Positions 2,521 through 63,761 of a DNA stretch of 64,000 bases are shown in pieces. A program made the translations under genes and the position numbers. Source of the stretch: an uncultured Opitutaceae bacterium (GTDB lineage Bacteria; Verrucomicrobiota; Verrucomicrobiia; Opitutales; Opitutaceae); assembly GCA_951813085.1 (NCBI GenBank), contig OX638348.1, positions 3,605,627 to 3,669,626 on the forward strand, read 5' to 3'. Within the stretch, counting starts at the first letter, position 1; each line of letters opens with the position of its first letter. Under the pieces are notes generated by a model. The model was not told the origin of the DNA and ran no database searches. It saw only the letters and a list, made by a program, of their open reading frames with translations.

Positions 2521-3720
2521 ATGAAACTCATGTGGATACAAATGAAACTGGCCCGCTCTCAAGTGGGCATTCTGATCCTCGCTGCGCTTTTGCAGCGTAC
2601 CCCCGTAATCAAATACGTATTTCAATTCGAAAAAGCCATTTCTGCCCCGGTCGCCAAGATCGTAAGAGCATTTACCGTTTCCGCGGCCTCGCTCGGGGGG
2701 ATGCATTCGATGTCCGGAGCGACCGAGTATGTGATTAACCCCGCCTCGCCCGCCTCTGCGACCGTAGGCGAAGAGTTCACCTTAGCGTTTTCGGTTATCG
2801 ATACACCCGCAAACGCGTCTTCCTGGAGAATTACCGGTACGATTCCACCTGGACTCTCGATCGAAGGATTGGTGAACGACAATATCAATACGGAGGACCC
2901 GGTCGTTATCATGGGAACGCCTACGCAGGCGGGGTCGTTCGATGTCATCGTTAAGCCATTTAACGGGATCAATCAGACCGCTCAAACGACGACGGCCACG
3001 ACGATCACAATAAATGTCGCAGCGACCGTTCCTGAGATCATCCGCGACCCAGTTTCGACCAAGGTGGCGACGGGGGCGCGGGCCCAGTTCTTCTTCGAGG
3101 CGACCGAGGGCGTGGAGACCGTCCAGTGGAAGAAGGACGGCGCCGCTATTCCGGGAGCCACGGCCTCGACTCTCGCCGTTAACGACGCCGGGCCTGGCGA
3201 CGAGGGCAGCTACACAGTGGAGGCGACCAATTCAGCCGGGTCGGTCGAGTCCGCCGCGGCGACGCTGACGATCGACGACGCCTCCAGCGCGGAGCTGTTC
3301 AACCTGGCGACGCGCGGCTTCGTGGGCACTGGCGGCGACATCCTAATCCCCGGGCTCACGGTCCTAGGCGGGACGTCCAAGACGGTGATCGTGCGCGGGC
3401 TGGGCCCAGCTCTAGAATCATTCGGCGTCTCCGGTTTCCTCGCCGATCCTGAGCTGAAAGTGTTCCAGACGATCTTCAACGAGTCCGGTGTGTCGGTGGG
3501 GAGCCAGCTTCTGGTGACCAACGACGACTGGGACGACGGAGCGGGCGTTGCTGAGCTGTCCGCGGCGCTGGACGAAGCGAATATCTTCCCCGCCCTGCAG
3601 GCGGGCTCAAAGGACGCGGCTCTGCTGCTGACCCTCAACCAGGGCGTCTACACCTTCCACCTGTCAGGGGTAGGCGGCTCAACTGGCGTGGGGCTGGTCG
3701 AGCTCTTCCTATTCGAATAG
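2521..3720 (+). CDS. Ig-domain surface protein, copy 1 (divergent N-terminal half)
   Basis: The 399-residue protein has four parts. Residues 1-65 are a hydrophobic N-terminal region with the motif ILILAALLQRTP, ending near SMSGAT, probably an export signal. Residues about 68-165 form a putative Ig-like domain with the IPPGLS pattern. Residues about 170-250 are a second Ig-like domain (VQWKKDGAAIPGA). The last 150 residues are the RGFVGTG...VRGLGPAL...SGVGGSTGV domain seen widely in Opitutae surface proteins. From base 3016 onward the DNA is identical to the two following copies, while the first half is only distantly related. The role is likely extracellular or adhesive, but no partner can be named. 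Confidence 0.75.
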   Translation: MKLMWIQMKLARSQVGILILAALLQRTPVIKYVFQFEKAISAPVAKIVRAFTVSAASLGGMHSMSGATEYVINPASPASATVGEEFTLAFSVIDTPANASSWRITGTIPPGLSIEGLVNDNINTEDPVVIMGTPTQAGSFDVIVKPFNGINQTAQTTTATTITINVAATVPEIIRDPVSTKVATGARAQFFFEATEGVETVQWKKDGAAIPGATASTLAVNDAGPGDEGSYTVEATNSAGSVESAAATLTIDDASSAELFNLATRGFVGTGGDILIPGLTVLGGTSKTVIVRGLGPALESFGVSGFLADPELKVFQTIFNESGVSVGSQLLVTNDDWDDGAGVAELSAALDEANIFPALQAGSKDAALLLTLNQGVYTFHLSGVGGSTGVGLVELFLFE

Positions 3721-3784
3721 ACATGTCGCCAACGAATCAGCGCCTATTTGTAACCCTAATCCGTTAGCGACCATTACCTAATCT

Positions 3785-3821
3785 GTTCGGTTCGGTTGAT
3801 ATTCTCTCTTTCAGGCCGAAC
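3785..3821 (+). promoter_or_regulatory. Possible 5' leader hairpin before the repeated Ig-domain genes
   Basis: The 116-base intergenic stretch before copy 2, repeated exactly before copy 3 at 5110-5146, holds GTTCGG at 3785-3790 and its complement CCGAAC at 3816-3821. These can pair around a 25-base loop. The ATG at 3837 has no evident Shine-Dalgarno sequence, so this leader may influence translation. The evidence is only the inverted repeat. Confidence 0.25.
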
Positions 3822-3836
3822 AAGCAGTTACGACCG

Positions 3837-5045
3837 ATGCCTTTTAAAACGCTGTATCTTAACTTCACTCGCTACCAATTCGCTATTCTTATTCTAGCTG
3901 CCTTGCTGCAGCGTTCGCCCGCGATTCGCTTGCTGGCGTCCTTGGAACGGGCCTTGGTCCAACCCGCATCGCAAATCATTAAGACGACTACTTGGGTGGC
4001 GACTTCACTGGGGCTATTCCACGCCACTGCGGGCGCTACGACATTTAGCACTGCGCCCGGAAATTCGCCTTATTCGGTGGAAGTCGGAGAATCGTTTAGT
4101 ATGAGTTTCACAGTCACGGGAGCCCCGGTTTCGCCATCACGTTGGGAGATCGCGGGAGCGGTTCCTCCCGGTCTGACAATGATGAATACGTCGAACGAGG
4201 TTCTATCGAACGGCCAGATAAATGGGGATGTAATTACCGTTAGCGGCGAGCCGACCACGGGTGGAATATACGTTTTTAGCGCCCAAGCGTTCAACGCGGC
4301 AGGCGATACAGACAACAACAAGTACGAAGTCCAAATCAACGTCGCAGCGACCGTTCCTGAGATCATCCGCGACCCAGTTTCGACCAAGGTGGCGACGGGG
4401 GCGCGGGCCCAGTTCTTCTTCGAGGCGACCGAGGGCGTGGAGACCGTCCAGTGGAAGAAGGACGGCGCCGCTATTCCGGGAGCCACGGCCTCGACTCTCG
4501 CCGTTAACGACGCCGGGCCTGGCGACGAGGGCAGCTACACAGTGGAGGCGACCAATTCAGCCGGGTCGGTCGAGTCCGCCGCGGCGACGCTGACGATCGA
4601 CGACGCCTCCAGCGCGGAGCTGTTCAACCTGGCGACGCGCGGCTTCGTGGGCACTGGCGGCGACATCCTAATCCCCGGGCTCACGGTCCTAGGCGGGACG
4701 TCCAAGACGGTGATCGTGCGCGGGCTGGGCCCAGCTCTAGAATCATTCGGCGTCTCCGGTTTCCTCGCCGATCCTGAGCTGAAAGTGTTCCAGACGATCT
4801 TCAACGAGTCCGGTGTGTCGGTGGGGAGCCAGCTTCTGGTGACCAACGACGACTGGGACGACGGAGCGGGCGTTGCTGAGCTGTCCGCGGCGCTGGACGA
4901 AGCGAATATCTTCCCCGCCCTGCAGGCGGGCTCAAAGGACGCGGCTCTGCTGCTGACCCTCAACCAGGGCGTCTACACCTTCCACCTGTCAGGGGTAGGC
5001 GGCTCAACTGGCGTGGGGCTGGTCGAGCTCTTCCTATTCGAATAG
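3837..5045 (+). CDS. Ig-domain surface protein, copy 2
   Basis: The 402-residue protein is built like copy 1. It has an N-terminal ILILAALLQRSP module ending near TAGAT, an Ig-like domain with VPPGLT, a second Ig domain, and the C-terminal RGFVGTG...SGVGGSTGV domain. Its last 235 residues are identical to copy 1, and the whole protein is identical to copy 3. The N-terminal Ig domain differs from copy 1, so binding specificity, if any, would sit there (inference). There is no clear ribosome binding site before the ATG. It is probably exported and displayed on the cell surface or secreted. Confidence 0.75.
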   Translation: MPFKTLYLNFTRYQFAILILAALLQRSPAIRLLASLERALVQPASQIIKTTTWVATSLGLFHATAGATTFSTAPGNSPYSVEVGESFSMSFTVTGAPVSPSRWEIAGAVPPGLTMMNTSNEVLSNGQINGDVITVSGEPTTGGIYVFSAQAFNAAGDTDNNKYEVQINVAATVPEIIRDPVSTKVATGARAQFFFEATEGVETVQWKKDGAAIPGATASTLAVNDAGPGDEGSYTVEATNSAGSVESAAATLTIDDASSAELFNLATRGFVGTGGDILIPGLTVLGGTSKTVIVRGLGPALESFGVSGFLADPELKVFQTIFNESGVSVGSQLLVTNDDWDDGAGVAELSAALDEANIFPALQAGSKDAALLLTLNQGVYTFHLSGVGGSTGVGLVELFLFE

Positions 5046-5161
5046 ACATGTCGCCAACGAATCAGCGCCTATTTGTAACCCTAATCCGTTAGCGACCATT
5101 ACCTAATCTGTTCGGTTCGGTTGATATTCTCTCTTTCAGGCCGAACAAGCAGTTACGACCG

Positions 5162-6370
5162 ATGCCTTTTAAAACGCTGTATCTTAACTTCACTCGCTAC
5201 CAATTCGCTATTCTTATTCTAGCTGCCTTGCTGCAGCGTTCGCCCGCGATTCGCTTGCTGGCGTCCTTGGAACGGGCCTTGGTCCAACCCGCATCGCAAA
5301 TCATTAAGACGACTACTTGGGTGGCGACTTCACTGGGGCTATTCCACGCCACTGCGGGCGCTACGACATTTAGCACTGCGCCCGGAAATTCGCCTTATTC
5401 GGTGGAAGTCGGAGAATCGTTTAGTATGAGTTTCACAGTCACGGGAGCCCCGGTTTCGCCATCACGTTGGGAGATCGCGGGAGCGGTTCCTCCCGGTCTG
5501 ACAATGATGAATACGTCGAACGAGGTTCTATCGAACGGCCAGATAAATGGGGATGTAATTACCGTTAGCGGCGAGCCGACCACGGGTGGAATATACGTTT
5601 TTAGCGCCCAAGCGTTCAACGCGGCAGGCGATACAGACAACAACAAGTACGAAGTCCAAATCAACGTCGCAGCGACCGTTCCTGAGATCATCCGCGACCC
5701 AGTTTCGACCAAGGTGGCGACGGGGGCGCGGGCCCAGTTCTTCTTCGAGGCGACCGAGGGCGTGGAGACCGTCCAGTGGAAGAAGGACGGCGCCGCTATT
5801 CCGGGAGCCACGGCCTCGACTCTCGCCGTTAACGACGCCGGGCCTGGCGACGAGGGCAGCTACACAGTGGAGGCGACCAATTCAGCCGGGTCGGTCGAGT
5901 CCGCCGCGGCGACGCTGACGATCGACGACGCCTCCAGCGCGGAGCTGTTCAACCTGGCGACGCGCGGCTTCGTGGGCACTGGCGGCGACATCCTAATCCC
6001 CGGGCTCACGGTCCTAGGCGGGACGTCCAAGACGGTGATCGTGCGCGGGCTGGGCCCAGCTCTAGAATCATTCGGCGTCTCCGGTTTCCTCGCCGATCCT
6101 GAGCTGAAAGTGTTCCAGACGATCTTCAACGAGTCCGGTGTGTCGGTGGGGAGCCAGCTTCTGGTGACCAACGACGACTGGGACGACGGAGCGGGCGTTG
6201 CTGAGCTGTCCGCGGCGCTGGACGAAGCGAATATCTTCCCCGCCCTGCAGGCGGGCTCAAAGGACGCGGCTCTGCTGCTGACCCTCAACCAGGGCGTCTA
6301 CACCTTCCACCTGTCAGGGGTAGGCGGCTCAACTGGCGTGGGGCTGGTCGAGCTCTTCCTATTCGAATAG
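5162..6370 (+). CDS. Ig-domain surface protein, copy 3 (identical to copy 2)
   Basis: This is a second exact copy of the 402-residue protein at 3837-5045, with the same 116 bases of leader. Domain order is the same: export module, two Ig-like domains, Opitutae-type C-terminal domain. The lack of any difference points to a very recent duplication, ongoing gene conversion or, less likely, an assembly duplication. It ends 21 bases from the stop of the convergent oxidoreductase gene, with no strong terminator hairpin visible between them. Confidence 0.75.
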   Translation: MPFKTLYLNFTRYQFAILILAALLQRSPAIRLLASLERALVQPASQIIKTTTWVATSLGLFHATAGATTFSTAPGNSPYSVEVGESFSMSFTVTGAPVSPSRWEIAGAVPPGLTMMNTSNEVLSNGQINGDVITVSGEPTTGGIYVFSAQAFNAAGDTDNNKYEVQINVAATVPEIIRDPVSTKVATGARAQFFFEATEGVETVQWKKDGAAIPGATASTLAVNDAGPGDEGSYTVEATNSAGSVESAAATLTIDDASSAELFNLATRGFVGTGGDILIPGLTVLGGTSKTVIVRGLGPALESFGVSGFLADPELKVFQTIFNESGVSVGSQLLVTNDDWDDGAGVAELSAALDEANIFPALQAGSKDAALLLTLNQGVYTFHLSGVGGSTGVGLVELFLFE

Positions 6371-34819: not shown

Positions 34820-35729
34820 TTAAATGTAGTTGAGAAGCGACGAGTTCAATACACGCCCCGCGCTCTGCAAAGTTGCCTGGTACGCATTCTGTATTTGCGT
34901 CAGCATGACTATCGTTTGGGATAGGTCTACGTCCGCTTCCGAAGATATGTTCTCTTCCAAATCGGTAAATCGCTGTTGATTCAGGTTGATATCGAATTCA
35001 ATTCTCAGCTGGATGGACCCTTGGCGGCTCAAAGCGAATATCAGCTCGTCTTCTGACGTTTCGAGTTCATCGCGCTCGTCACTGCATTTTGGCTACCGCT
35101 CTCCAGGGCATCTTTCAATTCAACCAAGCGATTGATGAAATCCGCCATCTGCTGATTCGTGGTCCCATCCGTAAAGGGAGTGACCTTTCCGGACTCGGAC
35201 AAATGAAACTCAGGCCCATTCGCGGCGCCGACATATGTGATTGCCGTACCTGCGCCCGCGCCATCGGGATCTTGAATCTTTCCATTCGCGTCCACATTAG
35301 AGGTGAAGGGCTCCGATCCACTCGCGATCCCTCCGAAAATATACTCGCCATTGAACTTTGCATTCGCGCCTTTCAAGGCATGCTCGAGCAGCTCGTCGAC
35401 CTCTTCCGCATAAGCCCTCAAACCATCGGGGCCTTGAAGGTCATTCGCCAAGACTGCAATCTCGTTTACTCGGTCAGAGATTTTGATGAGATCTTGCAGC
35501 TGAGAAATGGTGGTATTGTTGATATTCTGAGCGCGCGACGCGTTCTTCGAAAACTGAGCGATCTTGCCCTTCTCCTCCTGCATATTGAGGATGCGATTGC
35601 TCGCTGCGGAATCGTCGGAGATATGGGTGATTCGCTGGCCGCTTGCACCTGCAAGGCATTCATTTCCCTGGTGATGCGCTGCATATGGTTTAGCAGCGTA
35701 TCGGGATAGGTATTGTTGGTGACTCTCAT
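34820..35729 (-). pseudogene. flgL: Hook-filament junction protein FlgL, two frameshifts
   Basis: Three pieces form one FlgL of about 303 residues. The N-terminus is MRVTNNTYPDTLLNHMQRIT, the middle begins at ITHISDDSAASNRILNMQ, and the C-terminus contains DLSQTIVMLTQIQNAYQATL and LNSSLLNYI. One base is missing near 35643-35652 (expected reading VASGQRITHISDD) and one near 35058-35066 (expected SEDELIFALSRQG). Both shifts are of the same kind and each is repaired by adding one base. FlgL joins hook and filament, so loss would block filament growth if the lesions are real. Confidence 0.88.
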
Positions 35730-37760: not shown

Positions 37761-38081
37761 TATTTATCCAATTTCTTGGGCTCTATATTCGAATCATCTC
37801 CGAGCTGCGCCTGCAGCACGGATGAAAGTCCAAACGACGTTCCCTGAGTAATGCTATTCGCTAACGTATCCTTGATAATATGATCGTACATCGGAACCCA
37901 GCAATCCGCCTTCGCCATCCGCGGTCTTGAGGGCTTCATCTAGGAATTGACGCATCAGAATTCCTTCGAACTGCTTCGCTGCCTCATCGATTTGCTGATT
38001 CTTGGCCAACTGCCCATTCTGCATGCTCAGTTTCCACTGCATGCTATCCAAAGCGGTTGGCGCTGTCGTAATAGGATCCAT
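37760..38081 (-). pseudogene. flgJ: FlgJ-like rod-binding protein, frameshifted
   Basis: The N-terminal piece (MDPITTAPTALDSMQWK, then AAKQFEGILMRQFLDEALKT and GGLLGS) is the rod-binding domain of FlgJ without a muramidase part. A one-base shift near 37888-37895 breaks it. The other frame continues with MYDHIIKDTLANSITQGTSF and ends at 37760. The repaired protein is about 107 residues and overlaps flgN by one base. FlgJ helps assemble the rod in the periplasm. Confidence 0.8.
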
Positions 38082-40705: not shown

Positions 40706-41483
40706 CTATCGTTTGATTTGTCCAATTTGCTGCATCATCTGGTCTGAAGTCTGGATCGACTTGGAGTTGATTTCGTAAGCTCTCTGAGCCACGATCATGT
40801 TCACCATCTCCTGCACAATATTAACGTTCGAATTTTCAAGGAACCCCTGACGAATAGTACCGAATGTTTCCGTACCCGGATTTCCGCTACTAGGTGTACC
40901 GCTCGCGGATGTTTCGCGGAAGAGATTACCACCCAGGGCAGCGAGGCCGGAAGGATTGTTAAACCGGTACAACTCTAGATTGACGGTACTAATCAACTCT
41001 GAATCTCTCAAAAATGAAATCGTGCCTGTCTCGCTTATCACGACGCTGTTCGCTTCGCCAGGAAAGGAAATACCAGGTTCCAGAATCATCCCTTGACTGG
41101 TCATCAATTGTCCATCCGCGCCCCTCTTAAGACCGCCGTCTTGCGTATAGAGCGTTTCGCCGTTTCGATCGGTAACCGCGAAAAAGCCTTCTCCCACAAT
41201 GGCTACGTCCAACTGTTCGTCAGTTCGGTTGACCTGTCCTTGGGTAAAGACTTTAGATGTCGCCACGACTTGGGTACCGCTTCCAACTTGGATACCTGTA
41301 GGGAGAAGATTCCTTCCAGTATCCGCTCCGACTGATTTCGGTACTTGATAGAACATATCTTGGAACTCGACTTTGCTCTTCTTGAAGCCAGTCGTATTCA
41401 CGTTGGCGATAGTTGGGAATCACATTCAGATTGGTCTGCTGCGCTTCCATGCCGCTGGCTGCTGAATACAACGATATACTCAT
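40706..41483 (-). pseudogene. flgG: Distal rod protein FlgG, frameshifted
   Basis: The N-terminal piece (MSISLYSAASGMEAQQTNLN) and the C-terminal piece (NTTGFKKSKVEFQDMFYQVP through AQRAYEINSKSIQTSDQMMQ) form one FlgG of about 259 residues. The frame changes near 41408-41418, exactly in the rod-protein signature NxIANxNTTGFK. The conserved residues are readable across two frames. FlgG builds the distal rod. A small indel, real or a sequencing error, explains the break. Confidence 0.9.
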
Positions 41484-41516: not shown

Positions 41517-42277
41517 CTAGAAGCGTCCTCCCAAAGTCTGAATGGCTTTGCCGAGAAGTTCGTCTTTTCCTCGAATGACTTGCTGGTTCAATTGAAAGGC
41601 GCGGGATACGCTGATGAGATTGACCATCTCACCGGTATTGGATACATTGCTCTGTTCTAGAGCGCCGTGCCGGACGGAAATTTTATCGGAGTCGAGATGG
41701 AAGGCTTCCAGCTCTACACCATGGTCCAAGACGAATCCACCGTGAGTACGGATGAATGAGCTAGGATCGTGGGAGCTCCGGATTCCCAACATGCCGATCA
41801 CTTGATTCTTTTGGTTGATCGATCCATCGGGACCTCCCTTGATGGGTCCTCCATCTGGAAGGAGCTGGATGACATTACGTTCATCATCCATCACGAAGTA
41901 GCCTTGCTTGCTCACTAGCTGGCCCTGGTCGTTGACCTGGAACTGACCGTCACGCGTGTAGACGTATTGGCCATCTGGTGTGCGGAGTTCAAAAAAGCCG
42001 CCCCTTCCAACGCGAAGTCCGTATGGATGTCCGTGTTGAGGATCGCCCCGGTACTAAAGTCGCCGCCGCCCTTGCCGGTAGCGGCGATGGACTCGCGGTA
42101 AAGTGTTTTGTCGAATGATCCCTCGTAGCCAACCATCCCGTTCGCCTGGCCCTCGAATGAGAGTATCGCTTTCTTGTACCCTGGGGTGGACGACTGAGCC
42201 AAGTTCTGAGCGATCGCGTTATTCCACGATTCCAGCCCAGACATGGAGGCCGCATTTTGATAGATACCATTGAACAT
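41517..42277 (-). pseudogene. flgF: Proximal rod protein FlgF, frameshifted
   Basis: The N-terminal piece begins MFNGIYQNAASMSGLESWNN and the C-terminal piece includes NTGEMVNLISVSRAFQLNQQ. A missing base in a G4 run at 42001-42004 (sense strand) breaks the conserved LEGGGFFELRTPDGQYVYTR region. Adding one G restores a 253-residue FlgF. FlgF belongs to the proximal rod. A candidate sigma-54 promoter lies just upstream. Confidence 0.88.
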
Positions 42278-42292
42278 TTGGCAAATGACTAA

Positions 42293-42307
42293 GCAGTCGA
42301 CATGCCA
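42293..42307 (-). promoter_or_regulatory. Candidate sigma-54 promoter before flgF
   Basis: On the minus strand TGGCATGTCGACTGC has GG and GC separated by ten bases, as in -24/-12 promoters. The predicted start point would be only a few bases before the flgF ATG at 42277, which leaves a very short leader. Sigma-54 control of rod and hook genes is common in flagellar systems. The surrounding 42278-42417 holds no gene. Confidence 0.4.
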
Positions 42308-45227: not shown

Positions 45228-45467
45228 TTAGTTTGTGCGCTCTTCAGCCTCGACCATCGTCGCAACGGCAGTCTGATGCTTCTTCATGAGCATTTGCTTT
45301 ACATTCCTTATCCAAATTAACGTGATCCAGCGGAACAGGAGCCCCACCGCCACACAGCCGACACTCGCCTGAAATAGCGACTCCGACGGCGTTTTACCCA
45401 CAGCTAGCGCCAGGGCGAAAACCGCTCCAAATCCTATCAATCCACCTAATGCCATAGCGAACTTCAT
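45228..45467 (-). CDS. Small two-helix membrane protein in the flhF-fliA interval
   Basis: The 79-residue product has two hydrophobic helices (ALGGLIGFGAVFALALAVG and SVGCVAVGLLFRWITLIWI) and a basic tail. Its ATG overlaps the flhF stop (ATGA). In many flagellar loci the gene after flhF is flhG/fleN, a MinD-type ATPase, but this protein is unrelated. I recognise no family. It may serve flagellar placement or be a membrane anchor (inference from position). Confidence 0.6.
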   Translation of the reverse strand: MKFAMALGGLIGFGAVFALALAVGKTPSESLFQASVGCVAVGLLFRWITLIWIRNVKQMLMKKHQTAVATMVEAEERTN

Positions 45468-46787
45468 GCGACCGCTACCACCTCTCTATCGACTGCCTTG
45501 GAATCATCCGCGGAAGTGTCGTTCTTTCGAGCGGACGCAATTTCACGCCCTTGGGGGAAGGTCCTTTCAAGCAAGTAGCTCATTGGATCCATAGAATAGT
45601 CCCCTGCTGGATTTGGCCCGTGACTGAAAAAGAGAGGATGAATATCGCGGGACAAAGCGTATTTCCAAAGCTTTCCTGCTTTCCGGGTCTCATCCAAGTG
45701 AGTAAATACCGCATGCGTCGCATCCAGATGCGCTCCTGCAACAAAGGATTCCGAAATGATGTCCGTCTCGTAGGCGGCATTGATGACTAGGACTCTGTCA
45801 TCCGCTCCGATCGCATCGAGCTGCGCCGCGCAGTTCCTGATCGCCTCCGCGTCGCTCCAATTCAAGCCGGGGGCATCTACATAGATTGGCTTCGTATCCG
45901 AGCGTTCCTCTATTTCGTCCGCAGATCGATACAGAGGGGCCCCATAATCTCGCAGAACGCCTCTAACCCATCCGATGAATTAGGCACCGCTCCATCAAGC
46001 TTCAGCACAATCGGCTCCAAGCCATTGATAAAAATGTCCGATGAAAGCGCCTTGCACATGGCTGCAGTCTTCCCCACTCCGCTTGCCCCGACAAAGGCGC
46101 TACAATCGCCTTTCAATGAGGCCCGTTCTTTGGGAAATTGATTTCGCAGCCAATCACAGATACGGCTATAAATTTGCATTGTAGGCAAATCGCCGATACG
46201 CTTAAAGTCTAGATCATAACGCACGCGCTCAATCATCATATCGTCAAACCTCACTGAGCGTAGCATCGAGATCGCCCGTTCGACATGCTCTATCGAATTG
46301 CCTCGTCGAATCGGATTGGCAGCCGAGCCTAACCTAGGTCCAGATGGCGATCGATCCTCCGCTTTGATTCCAGAAAAGTAGTCCGCCGTTGAATCGCTGG
46401 ACCCAGCCTTAGTGTACAAATTCGAAATTGGTGTCCCTGGTGTACTCCTCGAGTTCAGAGACTTTACGATTCAAGATTGTAGGTGATGATGCCGCCAAAG
46501 CGGTAAAAACGATCAAGGAGAAGTTTGGGGAATCAGCAAAGGTAATTTCTGTAGAACAATTGGAACCCTCGGGATTGACAGGTCTCCTGAAGAAGCCGCG
46601 CTTGGAGATAATTGTTGATGCGAAGCGACCAAGCAAAAGAGAAACCAATCCAGAATTGGAATCGATAGCGGATGCCAGGGACGAAGGTGAAGCGTCGCCG
46701 TCGAATGATATAGCGAAAGAAAACGCGCCCGCAGCAGATACATATCAATGTTTTCTAAAGTATCCATAACTCAATTTCGGTTGCGTT
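45464..46787 (-). pseudogene. flhF: FlhF GTPase gene broken by a 357-bp internal inversion and frameshifts
   Basis: The C-terminal GTPase half is on the minus strand: CDWLRNQFPKERASLKGDCS, then AFVGASGVGKTAAM (P-loop), and NWSDAEAIRNCAAQLDAIGA. A missing base near 45957-45962 splits it. The N-terminal domain (LRFKIVGDDAAKAVKTIKEK, KVISVEQLEPSGLTGLLKKP) is on the plus strand at 46428-46769. Inverting 46423-46779 places it in front of the minus-strand half, directly after flhA. A further one-base shift near 46760-46768 is then needed. FlhF positions the flagellum at the pole. Confidence 0.82.
46423..46779. other. Inverted segment inside flhF bounded by 8-bp inverted repeats
   Basis: CGAAATTG at 46423-46430 and CAATTTCG at 46772-46779 are exact inverted repeats. 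Between them, the flhF N-terminal coding sequence reads on the plus strand, opposite to every neighbour. The bases beyond the 8-bp arms do not match. The segment could be flipped by recombination at short homology or by an invertase, or be an assembly error. Confidence 0.8.
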
Positions 46788-48514
46788 CTAGTTGCTTTGG
46801 CTGACACCCGTTAGCTCGGGTTCCTGAGATCGATTTGCCTTTTCCGCCATTTCTTGCATCTGCGATTGAACGAATTCCGGGAACACGATGATAGAGTGGT
46901 TCTGTATCTCGGTTGCCGATGGCAGTTCTTGATAGCTGAGTATGTTCAGCTTCGGTAGAGAGGGTTCGAAGAAGCGCTTAAACGGCAGTCGTATTTCCGC
47001 TGCGGTTACAAGTACTGGCATCAATCCGTTCTCAATCATGTCGTTCGCTTTCAATGCCAATTCACGTAGCAGGTGCTGTGCCAATTGAGGATCCAATGAC
47101 AATGTATAATCTGTATTCGTTCTCTGGATTTTCGTGGCAATCACTTGTTCAAGACGGGGATCCATCGTAATCGCTTTGAGCACGCCCTTCTCCGACTCGT
47201 AATTAACGACGAAGAACTCGCCTAACCGCCTTCGTACATACTCAGACAGGTCATCGGGATTCTTGGATATATTGGCGAAATCGCCTATCGCTTCCAGGAC
47301 AAGGGTAAGGTTTCGAATGGATACATTCTCCTTAAGCAAATTCTGCAATACGCGGTGAATGACTCCAATGTTCACCAAATCTGGGAGCAACTCGGAAATA
47401 AGTGCCGGGTGATCCTCCTGCACGTGATCGATAAGCTTCTGTACGTCCTGACGACTCAGGAGATACATGGAGTTCGTTTTCAAAACCTCTGACAAGTGAG
47501 TTACCAGTACAGAGCTTGAATCGACGATGGAGAACCCATTGATTTCCGCCGTCTTTTTCGCGTCCTCATCAACCCAAACAGACTCGATGCCAAAAACCGG
47601 TTCTGTGGTAGGAATGCCATCCAATTGAATTTCGCTATTGGATACGTTCATCGCCATCCAGCGGTTCGGCATCACTTCGCCACGCGAGATTTCCTTATTG
47701 TGCAAGAGGAACCGGTATTCATTGCTTTCCAATTCAAGGTTATCGCGAACCGCAATAGGCGGTACGACAATCCCAAGCTCGCGCGCCAAGGTCTTCCGTA
47801 CGCCGGTGACTCGTTCTAGTAGATCTCCTCCTTGGGACTTGTCCGCAAGAGAGAGCAGATTGTATCCAATTTCCAAGGCGAACACATCAACCTCGATAAG
47901 CTTCTCAAATTCTGCCGGCATGCTTTTCCCTTCCTCGCCAACCGATTCGTCACCAGACTCAGCTGCCGCCTTCTCTTCCGCCTTTAATTTTTCTGCTTTG
48001 CGCAGGCTGAACATAATTGCGGCAAACACGCCCGCAGTAAGGGAAAACGGTGTCATTGGCATGCTCGAGATAAAACCGATCGCGACCAGCATCCCGGCTA
48101 GAATCCCTATCGCCTTAGGATAGGCTGAGAACTGTCCACCGATCTGATCTCCCAAGTTATTCGAATTCCCTGAAGTCCGGGTCACCAAGACACCAGCAGC
48201 CAGTGAAACGATCAGTCCAGGAATTTGCGAAACGTGCCCATCGCCAATCGATAGCTAAGTGAACTTTTGCACAGCGGCGCTAAACGCCAAGTCATGCTGT
48301 ATCATCCCGATCGCGATTCCTCCTAGAACATTGATCGCAGTAATGAGAAGCGCCTATGCTCCCAACCAGGAGGAGATCTAGCAACACCGCTGGCAAAGGG
48401 CATGAACAGCAGCAGCACCGTGCCAAATAGCCCGAGCGTGACAAGCGTGTCGCCCTTCTTAAAGAACCCTGGAATTTGACCGAGGTCGATGCCTCCGTTA
48501 GAACGCTCCTTCAT
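46788..48514 (-). pseudogene. flhA: Export gate protein FlhA with internal deletion, frameshifts and amber stop
   Basis: The N-terminal 52 residues (PGFFKKGDTLVTLGLFGTVL) reach the first membrane helix, then the frame changes near 48370-48380 (VLLDLLLV readable in another frame). The next recognisable FlhA sequence, LLITAINVLGGIAIGMIQHD near 48350, normally lies about 190 residues later. The region with membrane helices 2-5 and the FHIPEP signature is therefore missing. A TAG at 48255-48257 replaces a conserved Leu before SIGDG. The last 466 residues, with the cytoplasmic domain, are open. As written, no functional FlhA can be made. Confidence 0.85.
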
Positions 48515-50651: not shown

Positions 50652-51409
50652 AACTGAAAACTCTGTACCAATGATTTAATTACAAGTGTCCATCCGTCTA
50701 CCAAAACGAACAGCAATAGCTTGAAAGGGAGTGATATAACGATAGGTGGCATCATCATCATACCCATCGCCATCAGCGTAGTGCCGACAAGAAAGTCTAT
50801 TAGAATAAAGGGGAGGAAGATCAGGAATCCCATTTGAAACGCGGTACGGATCTCGCTCATAACAAATGCAGGTACAACCACGCGCATGGGAAGCTCGGTC
50901 GTAGTGGTCGGTCCCATATTCGCCAAATCCAAGAAGAACTCTACATCGTCGATCTTCGTTTGCTTCAGCATGAAATCCCTAAGCGGCCCCGATCCTTTCG
51001 CTAGCGCTTCCTCGGTCGTAATCGCCTTGTCGAATAACGGTTGCAACGCGTTGGTATTCACTTCTTGGAATACCGGCTGCATGACGAAGAACGTGATTAC
51101 AAGGGCTAGCCCTACTATAAGCTGATTGGATGGCGCCTGGTGCACGCCCAAAGCGGTACGAACAAAACCGAGGACGATGATAATACGCGTAAAGCTCGTC
51201 ATCAGCACCACGATTGACGGACCCAGCGTGAGCAGGGTCATTAGCAGAAGTATCTGAATGGCAGCGCCTACATCCTGGCCACCCTCTTCCTCATCTCCCA
51301 TATTGATGCTTAAGCTAAGCCCAGATGGCGTTGTAGACTGACCGTACGAATCGTCCGCAAATGAGACGAAAAGAAAACCAACTAGCAGAAATGTGAGGAA
51401 CCGCTTCAT
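50648..51409 (-). CDS. fliP: Export gate protein FliP
   Basis: The 253-residue protein has a signal peptide (LLVGFLFVSFADDSYG) and the FliP core: TLGPSIVVLMTSFTRIIIVL, GFVRTALGVHQAPSNQLIVG and the C-terminal IVISLPFKLLLFVLVDGWTL. It is the main subunit of the export channel. Its ATG overlaps the repaired fliO stop. It appears intact. Confidence 0.95.
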   Translation of the reverse strand: MKRFLTFLLVGFLFVSFADDSYGQSTTPSGLSLSINMGDEEEGGQDVGAAIQILLLMTLLTLGPSIVVLMTSFTRIIIVLGFVRTALGVHQAPSNQLIVGLALVITFFVMQPVFQEVNTNALQPLFDKAITTEEALAKGSGPLRDFMLKQTKIDDVEFFLDLANMGPTTTTELPMRVVVPAFVMSEIRTAFQMGFLIFLPFILIDFLVGTTLMAMGMMMMPPIVISLPFKLLLFVLVDGWTLVIKSLVQSFQL

Positions 51410-51962
51410 GCCAACTCCCGAACTGCTGCGCTTTCGACCTGAGGTTCAATCGAAGGAAACTCATTCCGATAGCCATTTAAAGAGGTGAGATAATCGATTT
51501 TCCCTGGGCCGACTCCTAGCAGAACCTTGTTTTCTTCGTACTCGACCACCATAAGGTACTGTCGATTGCCAAGCATCTACTCTCGGCGACCTTTAGCTTG
51601 CCTTCGCTGTTGGAGAACGGCTTGCGAATAACGCCTCTCTTAAAGAGATACCAGGCAGCTACCGCCATTCCTCCCAGGATGACCAGGTAGCCTAAAGTCG
51701 TTACGACCATTCCAATCGCAGATCCGCTTTCCGACATCAGGTCAGAGTAGACCGCTTCGCTATCAGCGTTCGGAGCATCGTCGGTTGTCCGACTTGGAAA
51801 GATAACTTGAGGTTGCTCTTCTTCTGCTTCTTGGGCCATAGACGCCGGCGACCCTGCAGAAAAGCATACCGCCCAAAAGAGCAGAATTCCAATGCCCTGA
51901 ACGATGTTTAGTCGAAATCCAGCGTTTCGCCGGAATGGGCGTTCCAATAATTGATCGATCAT
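51406..51962 (-). pseudogene. fliO: FliO-like protein, frameshifted
   Basis: The product has a hydrophobic N-terminus, an acidic linker and a membrane helix (VVTTLGYLVILGGMAVAAWY), followed by the FliO basic region (KLKVAESR). One base is missing near 51576-51580. The other frame continues with MLGNRQYLMVVEYEENKVLL, GVGPGKIDYLTSL and ends at 51406, overlapping fliP. The repaired protein is about 185 residues. FliO assists FliP assembly. Confidence 0.78.
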
Positions 51963-59292: not shown

Positions 59293-60610
59293 CTAACAAC
59301 CTCCATCAGTTGCTCGTAGGAATCACGACTGCTGACATGCTCCATAAAATTCTGCTTGAGCAGATTCATAATTCGTTCGTGAGCAAGGATTGCGTTATCG
59401 ATTCTAGCGTTTACGCCTTTGTTGTAGGCACCTAGATTTATTATGTCTTCGTTCTTTCGATACAAAGCTAGATAGTCTCTCGCAATGCTCGCGAGTCCGA
59501 CTTCATCCGCTGAAGAAATGTCATTCACGAGTCGGCTAATGCTCTCCAGAACATCTATTGCGGGAAAGTGATTTGCAGTCGCCAATCGCCGAGACAGGAC
59601 AATATGCCCATCCAATATTCCCCGTACAGCGTCCGACACTGGTTCGTTAAGGTCATCGCCCTCGACAAGCACTGTGTAAAACGCGGTGATCGACCCCTTC
59701 GATGAATTGCCCGAACGCTCGAGCAGCTTTGGCAACTTGGAAAAGACTGAAGGCGTATACCCCTGCTAGCGGGCGGCTCCCCAATGGCAAGCCCGACCTC
59801 TCGCTGCACCATGGCATAACGAGTCACCGAGTCCATTAGAAACAGGACACGCTTCCCAGATTCACGGAAGTTCTCCGCAATGGTGGTAGCGAGATTTGCC
59901 GCTCTCAAACGAAGCGGTGCGCTTTGGTCCGAGGTCGCTACGACAACAACCGTCTTCCTGAGTCCTTCTGCGCCAAGGTCTTTCTCGATAAATTCTCTGA
60001 GCTCGCGACCGCGTTCCCCAACGAGAGCGATCACATTTACATCCGCGTCCGAACCTCTAGCCAGCATACCCATCAGCGTTGACTTACCCACGCCGCTTCC
60101 AGCGAATACTCCCAAGCGCTGACCGACCCCGACAGGACTGAATAGATCGATCGCCTTAACGCCTGTTTCAAAGCGGTCCGTGATACGTTCACGCAATAGC
60201 GGATTCGGTATCTTGCGATTTCGAGAATTTTCCTCTCTAAAGTGGATTGGCCCCAACTGGTCTATCGGATTTCCAAGCCCGTCTAGCACTCGGCCCAGAG
60301 CTTCAGACCCAACTGGGATTTGATTGACGCCGGCGCTCAACTGCACATGGCAGCCCGGATGTACGCCTTCCATATCTTCAAGAGGCATCAACAGTATCTT
60401 ATGGTCGCGAAACCCAACCACTTCCGCATGTATCCGTAAATTCGTACTCGGAGAGACGATATCGCAAATATCACCCAAGCTTGCTTGAGGACCTTCAGAC
60501 TCAACAACAAGGCCTGCTACCTGAACGACTTTGCCCAATCGTGTAACGGTATCCGAAGATTCCACACGGATTCCAATATCGGCGGCCCATTCTGGCAATA
60601 TCCTATTCAT
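59289..60610 (-). pseudogene. fliI: Export ATPase FliI, frameshifted
   Basis: The N-terminal piece has Walker A GVFAGSGVGKSTLMGMLARG, the GERGRELREFIEKDLG region, and Walker B-like GKRVLFLMDSVTRYA. After GEPPASRG the frame changes near 59755-59763. The other frame continues YTPSVFSKLPKLLERSGN, then GSITAFYTVLVEGDDLNEPV and RGILDGHIVLSRRLA. One added base restores a 440-residue FliI. FliI is the flagellar type III export ATPase. It overlaps fliJ by four bases and abuts fliH. Confidence 0.92.
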
Positions 60611-61203
60611 CAGTTCGGCTTTAGCCCATCCTTAAGGCGGTCAAGCTTAGTTGACATCAATCCGTCGACTTTTCCGAAACGGCTGCTTAGCATGCAATCG
60701 CCTCGCTTAAGTCCCTTGTCGGACTTGAACTCCAATCGAGGATGCTTTACCTTGAGATCCGCTTCGAGATCCTCGAGCAATTCCAGGTCCTGTGGATTCA
60801 AGCGAATTTCCATAGCTTCGTCGTCTAGTCCAGACTCCTCGATGACAGAATTCACTATGGAATGCACAATCTCAGAGCTAAGCTCAAGACCCCCTATAGC
60901 GCGGCTGACGCACTCATGCGTAAGAGTCATCAAAGCCTCCCTCGCTTCTTCACGGATAACGCCGAATTTGCTTTCCAAAGTAGAGAATGTCTGTTCGCGA
61001 AGGGCATTCACTTCTGATCGGAAATCGAGAATCTGCTGATTGTATTGCTGGCTCGCTTCGTCATACCCTTTCTGATACGATTCTTCCATAGCTGCTTTAT
61101 GAACACTCGCATCCACTCTCGCGTCTCCGTCATAGGAAACGCGAAGGCCAACTAAAGCCTCACCCAACTCAAGATTCGTCTTAGACTGTCTGACTGTCAC
61201 CAT
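60610..61203 (-). CDS. fliH: FliH-like export regulator
   Basis: The 197-residue protein has a central coiled coil (EESYQKGYDEASQQYNQQIL) and a C-terminal FliH/YscL-type domain (IVHSIVNSVIEESGLDDEAM, IRLNPQDLELLEDLE). It binds and restrains FliI. It overlaps the fliG end by 23 bases and shares one base with the fliI start. It is intact. Confidence 0.85.
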   Translation of the reverse strand: MVTVRQSKTNLELGEALVGLRVSYDGDARVDASVHKAAMEESYQKGYDEASQQYNQQILDFRSEVNALREQTFSTLESKFGVIREEAREALMTLTHECVSRAIGGLELSSEIVHSIVNSVIEESGLDDEAMEIRLNPQDLELLEDLEADLKVKHPRLEFKSDKGLKRGDCMLSSRFGKVDGLMSTKLDRLKDGLKPN

Positions 61204-62194
61204 CTAGGCTAATCTCCTCCTGCTCTTCCAATCGACGCACCACTTGTATAACGCGCTCCTGGGCTGCTTCTACCTCAGTCAGTTTCACCGGCCCCATCAT
61301 CTCAAGCTCTTCTAGGAGCGTTTCCGCTGCACGCTTCGAAACGGCCTGCATAATGAAATCCTTCAGCGGATCTGATGCAGACTTAAGGGAAACCGTAAGA
61401 TCCCCCGAATCGACCTCGCGCATGATGCGCTGCAGATCCGGCAGCTCGAGACGAATCAAATCATCGAAGCTGAACATCTTCTTTCGAATTTCCGATCCAA
61501 GAGTCGGATTTCGCTCTTCGCTCTTCGATATTCGCTAGAATCTCTTTGCTGTCTTCCTTTTCGAGAGTGTTGAGGAGGTCCGCAACCATTCTTACACCGC
61601 CGCTGCGATTCATGGTTACCTTGCCTCCTGTATCCAAATTCTTGCTTAGCGAATTCGCTACCTTGTTGATAATTTCAAGGGAGGTTGGCTCAAGCATGCC
61701 CAATCGCTCAATCACCTCTTCCCGCAGGTCTTGGTTGAACATGCCCAATATCGGACCCGCTTTGTCGTTTTCCAAATACGACAGGACAAATGCAATCGTC
61801 TGAGATTGCTCAGTCTTGATCATATTGAAGATCTGCCTCGGCTCCATTTGCTCAATTTCCTTGATCACCTCAGCCGAGTTGCTGGAAGGAGCGATGCGTT
61901 CGAGAATACTCGAAGCCTTGAAATCCCCTTTCGCAATCTCAAGAGTCTTTCTCGTGTAGAACGCCCCCCGAGCAGCGAGCCATAACTGGATAGGATCACA
62001 CCAGAAAATTCATCGATCGCCTTTTGCTGATCTTCCTCTTCGATCGCAGTTATTGCCGTCATTTCACGGCAAATAAGCTCAATCTCCTCGTCTTCAAACT
62101 GCTTGAGCACATGGGCCGCCGCTTCTGGACCGATAACGATCAGAAACGTAGCCAATTTCTGCGTACGAGATAGTTTTTCGCAAACTCCAGCCAT
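61181..62194 (-). pseudogene. fliG: Flagellar switch protein FliG with a frameshift and a 7-bp tandem duplication
   Basis: Three pieces make one FliG of about 337 residues: SRTQKLATFLIVIGPEAAAH at the N-terminus, TEQSQTIAFVLSYLENDKAG in the middle, and the torque domain MFSFDDLIRLELPDLQRIMR with AAETLLEELEMMGPVKLTEV. The first break is a G6 run at 61964-61969 (one more G is needed for SLLGGAFYTRKTLEIAKG). The second is a perfect 7-bp tandem duplication of GCTCTTC at 61513-61526. Removing one copy gives NIEERNPTLGSEIRKKMF. FliG connects rotor to stator. Confidence 0.92.
61513..61526 (-). repeat. 7-bp tandem duplication in fliG
   Basis: GCTCTTC occurs twice in a row on the plus strand. One copy restores the conserved FliG reading across the boundary to the C-terminal domain, so this is the likely frameshift mutation. 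It is not a homopolymer. Confidence 0.85.
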
Positions 62195-62199
62195 GATAA

Positions 62200-63761
62200 T
62201 TATCTATTCTCCGTTTCCCCGATCCATTCCCGAAGCGACACGCCTATATTGGCTGGCTTCTGACGTATAAGCTCATTGAGCATCTCTGGCGTTACGGTTC
62301 CATTGTCCTCCAGGTTCCGATTTTCGAGCATCTGCTCGGGTTGAAGCACTTCGATCGAAATTTCTTCCGGCTTGGTTTTCTTTAGCATCTGCAAGAAGAA
62401 GATGATTACTCCAACACCCAGAACTATTCCCAAGAAATTCTTGCCTAGATCTACCCATTTCTGGAAGTCGAACCCACCGGTAAGCGATTGCGTATGCAAC
62501 GCGACTGGATCGGGGGCGAACTCCATTTCATTTACGGTAACTAGCTGCTCAGCCGTTTCGCCATTGTTGAGCTGAATTCCGAGAGCATTGATTACAATCT
62601 GTCGAAGCTCGTTCAATTCCTCAGGTCCTCGAGGGATCGGATTTCCCTGCTCATCCAATCGCTTCGCTACCAAGAGCGACGCCGTTAGTCGACGAATCGT
62701 GCCTGGGCTTTGCACGCGATTGCTCACTACCTTCCCAATTTCATAGCTCTCAGTCTTTTGCTCTGTAGAATCTTCTCGATCCGTGAACGATCCACTCGAC
62801 CCGCCTTCCGCGCTAGGGACATTGGACTGGGTTCCTGCTACGCCTCCGTAGGCCCCTCCATTCTCTGTTTCCGAAGTCTTGGCCTCCTCAGTAACGGAAG
62901 AACGAAGTACCCCCTCCGGATCGAAGCTCTCTTCGGTGGTTTGAACCGTGGCGGTATCAACATCGACTGCGACGCGAACCTCCGATTGGTTTGATCCCAG
63001 CACGCGATCCAGCATACTCTGAACCTTCGTCGTAAAATAGGCTTCGAGCCCTTTGCGATACCGGATCACGTCATTCGACATTCCTCCTTCAATCCATCGC
63101 TTTTAAGTTCTTCGCTCAGAACGACTCCAGCGCTATCTACCACAACGACATCGTTCGCGTTCAAGCCTTGAATCGAGTTCGCGACCAACTGCCTGATCGA
63201 GTTTACCGCCGATAAAGTCATCCCGCCACTTGTATCCACGAAAACGGAAGCGCTCGCACGCTCGCGTCCTTCGCTGGTGACGATAATTCTATTCTCCGGC
63301 ATCACGACCATCACTCTTGCAGAGCGAACACCGCTGAACTGAGTGATCGTTCGTTCGAGCTCGCCTTTGATCGCTCTTAAGTAGTTCGTACGCTGAACGA
63401 AATCGCTGATCCCAAAGCTTCCCTGATCGAACAATTCGAATCCAGGACCGCTGCCTGAAGGCACCAGGCCTTCCGATGCGAGCTCCCAACGCAACTTGTG
63501 CACCATGCTCGACTGAACATAGATCGAATTTCCATTCTTGCCGGTTTCAAAACTGGCGCCCTTTTGTTCGAGCTTCGTTACGATCTCCCCCGCTTCTTCC
63601 GGGTCTAGATTGCCATAAAGCAGCTGCATGCTCGGTTGGCTCGCCCACACCATCAGGGCAATCATCGCTAGTCCGACCAAACCGGCAGCTAGAATAAGCG
63701 ATATTTTCTGATTGGCCCCAAGCGGGTTCCAAAGATCTTTAAATTGATTTAATAATGCCAT
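62200..63761 (-). pseudogene. fliF: MS-ring protein FliF, frameshifted
   Basis: The N-terminal piece has the first membrane helix (ISLILAAGLVGLAMIALMVW) and the FliF ring-building motifs (YGNLDPEEAGEIVTKLEQKG, LRAIKGELERTITQFSGVRS). The C-terminal piece begins in another frame (MSNDVIRYRKGLEAYFTTKV) and ends in a second helix (FLGIVLGVGVIIFFLQMLKK) and the FliG-binding tail. The break is near 63081-63090, in a GA-rich run, and one added base joins them. The repaired length is 520 residues. FliF is the base of the whole structure. Confidence 0.92.

Follow-up and report, generated by a model that had tools for sequence, protein, structure and literature searches.

The stretch of DNA analysed here, referred to as the window, comprises 64,000 nucleotides of an uncultured Opitutaceae bacterium and corresponds to positions 3605627-3669626 of its one-contig 4.85-Mb genome, which is listed as 97.04% complete. 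A flagellar gene cluster encoded on the minus strand spans about 31 to 64 kb of the window. Within this cluster, the 357-bp piece at window positions 46423-46779 represents a flipped part of flhF, as it encodes the N-terminal domain of FlhF on the plus strand while the remaining part of flhF and the neighbouring genes are located on the minus strand. The features at and around this piece are the following:

45464-45865, minus strand: end of the FlhF GTPase domain, in a frame which differs from that of the part at 45910-46419
45910-46419, minus strand: FlhF linker and start of the GTPase domain in native orientation; the frame is lost near 45940
46423-46430: left arm of the 8-bp inverted repeat, where the inverted piece joins the remaining flhF
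46428-46769, plus strand: FlhF N-terminal domain and start of the linker, inverted; stop codon at 46767-46769, ahead of the right arm
46772-46779: right arm of the 8-bp inverted repeat, 8 bases away from the stop codon of flhA
46788-48514, minus strand: flhA remnant with an in-frame TAG and a deletion of about 460 bp whose junction lies near 48345-48352

An earlier note on this DNA had described a segment of flhF inverted between 8-bp repeats whose arms mark the ends of the segment. Both observations are borne out, the N-terminal domain and the GTPase half being found on opposite strands and both arms being situated at the junctions. The plus-strand open reading frame at 46428-46769 encodes 113 amino acids, starts with TTG and matches positions 5-88 of the NCBIfam FlhF profile TIGR03499 (E-value 6.8e-07). 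Of the three FlhF pieces, this one reaches 29.6 bits and another 15.4 bits, with no match for the third, at a curated cut-off of 174.15; the whole FlhF orthologue of the relative G009, scoring 63.9 bits, also stays under this cut-off. The assignment of this putative gene as flhF is based on its best match, its position beside flhA and its colinearity with the genes of relatives. With FlhF from G009 as query, residues 14-98 are found on the plus strand at 46458-46730 and residues 114-435 on the minus strand at 46434-45467. Usable FlhF query frames were obtained from 20 of 28 relatives' loci, the other eight being on the opposite strand with a wrong frame or none. The N-terminal domain was found by 14 of the 20 usable queries, invariably on the plus strand, and the GTPase half by 19 of the 20 on the minus strand. 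An N-terminus encoded on the opposite strand of the piece was considered and discarded: the minus-strand frame leading into the GTPase half stops inside the piece and does not offer any FlhF-like start. A search of the whole genome for a second copy of flhF or flhA yielded none, each gene giving a single match.

The left arm (46423-46430) reads CGAAATTG and its complement is present at 46772-46779. The two arms, which are separated by a spacer of 341 bp, form a perfect 8-bp inverted repeat with the bases to either side mismatching. At the outer flanks, homology to G009 extends to within one base of both arms, and the inverted piece itself aligns from its base 33 (with G009) or 17 (with G005) to base 347-357 of 357. 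An inverted match of at least 8 bp between 30-bp stretches of the same spacing came up in 23 of 4000 placements drawn at random within the flagellar half of the window. Since the arm motif is not enriched within the window (3 occurrences found, 4.8 expected) and the surrounding 1.5 kb harbour 31 inverted pairs, it is only the position of the arms which is notable. At the same place, the arm pair is missing in all seven relatives examined, one of which (G003) has the motif once, at another site in flhF.

According to the earlier note, flipping the segment back would put the start of FlhF just after the flhA stop codon. This holds in so far as the N-terminal end of the piece would then adjoin flhA as it does in G009, where about 20 bases lie between the two genes; however, inspection by eye reveals TTG and GTG at the expected start of the piece but no ATG. 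In neither orientation is flhF intact, as the piece contains a stop codon and the GTPase half shifts frame near 45940. A search of 56 relatives located the N-terminal domain of FlhF in 28, and in 27 of these it lies within one open frame of 335-451 codons. In the comparison of flhF among relatives which the earlier note had suggested, the frame of the window is broken relative to the whole orthologues of nearly all matched relatives, as is expected of a pseudogene. In all six members of the genus in which both genes were found, flhF and flhA are encoded on the same strand.

Beyond flhF and flhA, the frame is disrupted in eight further genes of the cluster:

34823-35646, minus strand: flgL, frame changes near 35070
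37763-38081, minus strand: 109-codon gene of the cluster, frame changes near 37885
40709-41483, minus strand: flgG, frame changes near 41411
41520-42301, minus strand: flgF, frame changes near 41995
51409-51962, minus strand: fliO, frame changes near 51570
59295-60610, minus strand: fliI, frame changes near 59750
61184-62227, minus strand: fliG, frame changes near 61945 and 61525, with a 7-base tandem duplication at the latter site
62203-63761, minus strand: fliF, frame changes near 63091

The names flgL, flgG, flgF, flhF, fliO, fliI, fliG and fliF were adopted from the G009 orthologues, with the orthologue scores of flgF, fliO and FlhF lying under the cut-offs of their models. For the counts given below, a frame was considered if its best piece scored 100 bits or more and no less than half of the frame was covered; two false antisense reference frames were removed, the best-scoring frame being kept. 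Measured against G009, the cluster has 10 broken frames out of 36, and 12 frame switches, one of them being the inversion, are seen in 30,336 aligned bases. The corresponding figures for three control regions from this genome are 7 broken frames out of 66 and 7 switches in 92,364 bases, so that the pathway neighbours of flhF are broken above the genome background. The comparison of G009 with G010 over the same stretch does not reveal a single broken frame (0 of 55 and 0 of 56). The switch rate of 0.396 per kb in the cluster exceeds that of 0.076 per kb in the controls about fivefold (one-sided p = 0.0004), whereas the contrast at the level of genes is weaker (Fisher p = 0.049). If flhF is left out, 9 of 35 frames are broken with 10 switches, and the switch-rate contrast persists (p = 0.002) while that at gene level amounts to p = 0.083, i.e. 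it falls below 0.05 only with flhF included. Extension of the cluster by 20 kb results in 12 of 50 broken frames (gene-level p = 0.076) if G009 serves as reference and in 11 of 46 if G010 does. A gene with pieces on both strands is found once among the 50 frames of the extended cluster, namely flhF, and not at all among the 66 control frames. Taken singly, the control regions show 2 of 41, 3 of 19 and 2 of 6 frames broken, the last and smallest one being no cleaner than the cluster. The control stretch L046 was left out, as it gave only short scattered matches in G009, and the random stretches L041, L043 and L047-L050 were used for open reading frame lengths only; the mean length is 276 codons in the window compared to 296-756 codons across ten random stretches.

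The unbroken 26 of the 36 cluster frames include some highly conserved ones, such as the fliA frame with 97% identity to G009. Because so many frames are unbroken, either the decay is recent or some of the single-base lesions may be sequencing errors. The latter notion can be carried further by assuming that most frameshifts are read errors of an unpolished assembly, with flhF otherwise intact and its inversion being a real polymorphism. The breaks within the control regions would agree with this assumption, and so would the fact that, of the ten frameshift sites in flagellar genes which were aligned to a relative, six involve a single base, although by eye at most two of these are located beside a run of at least four equal bases. 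At the other four sites several bases are affected (7; 8 in two gaps; 2; the 7-base tandem duplication), and lesions in the control regions also include multi-base gaps. Moreover, the deletion of about 460 bp in flhA along with its TAG is not a read error, the flagellar cluster has about five times the switch density of the controls, and in a genome of such high listed completeness breaks affect the cluster whereas the majority of control frames are whole. Judged from the sequence, the mixed lesion sizes together with the flhA deletion and the TAG fit real decay better than read errors, and we regard an origin of the frameshifts mainly from read errors as very unlikely, even if individual single-base sites may be due to sequencing error.

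The genome seems to carry broken genes outside the flagellar cluster, too. One control region contains a large, well conserved gene (L086 near 8370, G000:C1 near 1728370; 1587 codons in G009, 92-94% identical) with a frame switch, and hence decay or sequence error reaches further than the flagellar genes. A further gene, situated beyond the flagellar genes of the window (L100 near 9940, G000:C1 near 3679570), changes frame compared to G009; its G009 orthologue matches PhoH2 models under the curated cut-off.

The earlier note had proposed a phase switch for polar flagellation, a one-off rearrangement or a misassembly. In the case of a reversible intragenic phase switch, a recombinase would flip the piece at the 8-bp arms and thereby turn FlhF and flagellation on and off. 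The exact position of the piece between the arms of a perfect inverted repeat and the restoration of the relatives' gene order upon flipping would be in line with such a device, as would ten matches to the tyrosine recombinase family (PF00589, nine over the cut-off) in the genome. None of these ten, however, is linked to the inversion site: there is no PF00589 match within 165 kb of the window, the nearest being 165 kb away, and the two strongest are presumably XerC and XerD. A serine recombinase (PF00239) gave no match in the whole genome, with the same search producing matches in 10 of 14 control genomes. The absence of the arm pair at this place from the relatives examined equally argues against a switch. 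There is no intact flhF either way, and the other broken genes of the cluster (flhA, fliF, fliG, fliI, fliO, flgF, flgG and flgL) include genes for export, switch and basal body. Hence, we rejected the phase switch, which appears extremely improbable. Invertons and intragenic inversions have reportedly been treated by Chanin et al. in 2024. In the excerpt of a study considered here (PMC11892184), invertons are described as having repeats of 10-40 nt at their ends and being flipped by an invertase. The flhF piece resembles the invertons and intragenic inversions of this excerpt in being a short intragenic stretch of DNA inverted between inverted repeats. It differs from them by its arms, which at 8 bp with mismatching flanking bases are shorter than 10-40 nt, by the lack of a recombinase nearby and by the lack of an intact product in either orientation (PMC11892184, same excerpt).

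A misassembly or strain chimera would mean that the piece is flipped in the assembly alone. The inversion is indeed read from the assembly sequence. Yet, microhomology is present at each of the two junctions, as would be expected after a real rearrangement, and the surroundings hold other lesions of several sizes. In addition, arms of 8 bp are far shorter than the overlap of any assembler and thus too short to mislead an overlap or k-mer assembly. For this reason, the misassembly put forward in the earlier note is distinctly unlikely.

Of the three options the one-off rearrangement fits best, with other lesions being present in flhF and in nine further genes. We conclude that the inversion within flhF very probably is a single unprogrammed event at an 8-bp microhomology in an Opitutaceae bacterium whose flagellum is being lost or is already gone. 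As flhF and several of its flagellar neighbours carry other breaks, the inversion looks like one scar of a decaying cluster and not like an on/off switch. To judge from the junctions, it may have arisen by template switching during replication or by end joining between the two 8-bp microhomologies, at a time when the gene would have been under little or no selection; it would since have been fixed in one orientation without switching, and the cell would be non-motile. According to the excerpt used of a study in yeast (PMC8604942), a spacer can be inverted by template switching between short inverted repeats. Our case is similar in that a spacer between short inverted repeats would have been flipped without a dedicated recombinase; in contrast to the excerpt (PMC8604942), it concerns a bacterium, has a spacer of 341 bp, and the mechanism is deduced from the junctions alone. 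It is scarcely credible that a slowly invertible flhF segment once switched, or still switches, flagellation in a branch of the genus, the lesions having been gained while it was stuck in the off orientation.

A single unprogrammed inversion turns the tempting interpretation as a phase switch into ordinary gene decay. An intragenic inversion between short arms alone is not evidence of a switch, and both the gene and its pathway should be checked for other lesions. In lineages losing motility, flagellar clusters can decay into pseudogenes. The present cluster resembles such cases in its separate frameshifts, deletion and nonsense codon, with the relatives' genes being whole, and in the lack of a FlhA or FliG match in other members of the genus. 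It differs from the usual decay in that its lesions include a few-hundred-base inversion, which belongs to a class rarer than small indels and deletions. Our literature search brought up no conspicuous paper on an inversion in flhF, which is no proof that none exists.

The lineage seems to be captured midway through the loss of its flagellum. Among 11 genomes of the genus, seven yield a FlhA match, six of them over the cut-off and the seventh being the window's own genome; FliG is matched in the same seven, with five over the cut-off. The same four of the 11 genomes are without a match to either protein, and since these are drafts of 85-97% completeness the absence could partly reflect missing sequence. 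Repeated loss of the flagellum within the genus is likely. In G007 (contig C335; L080 4082-5317), flhF is colinear and on one strand, but has a 130-codon frame and one in-frame stop codon, possibly a second, separate loss.

In a different part of the window, three tandem genes at 2521-6370 encode proteins of about 400 residues which, by appearance, we take to contain Ig-like domains. The second and third gene are identical in DNA, while the first has just the last 236 residues in common with them; this pattern points to a duplication of very recent date and an exchanged N-terminal half.
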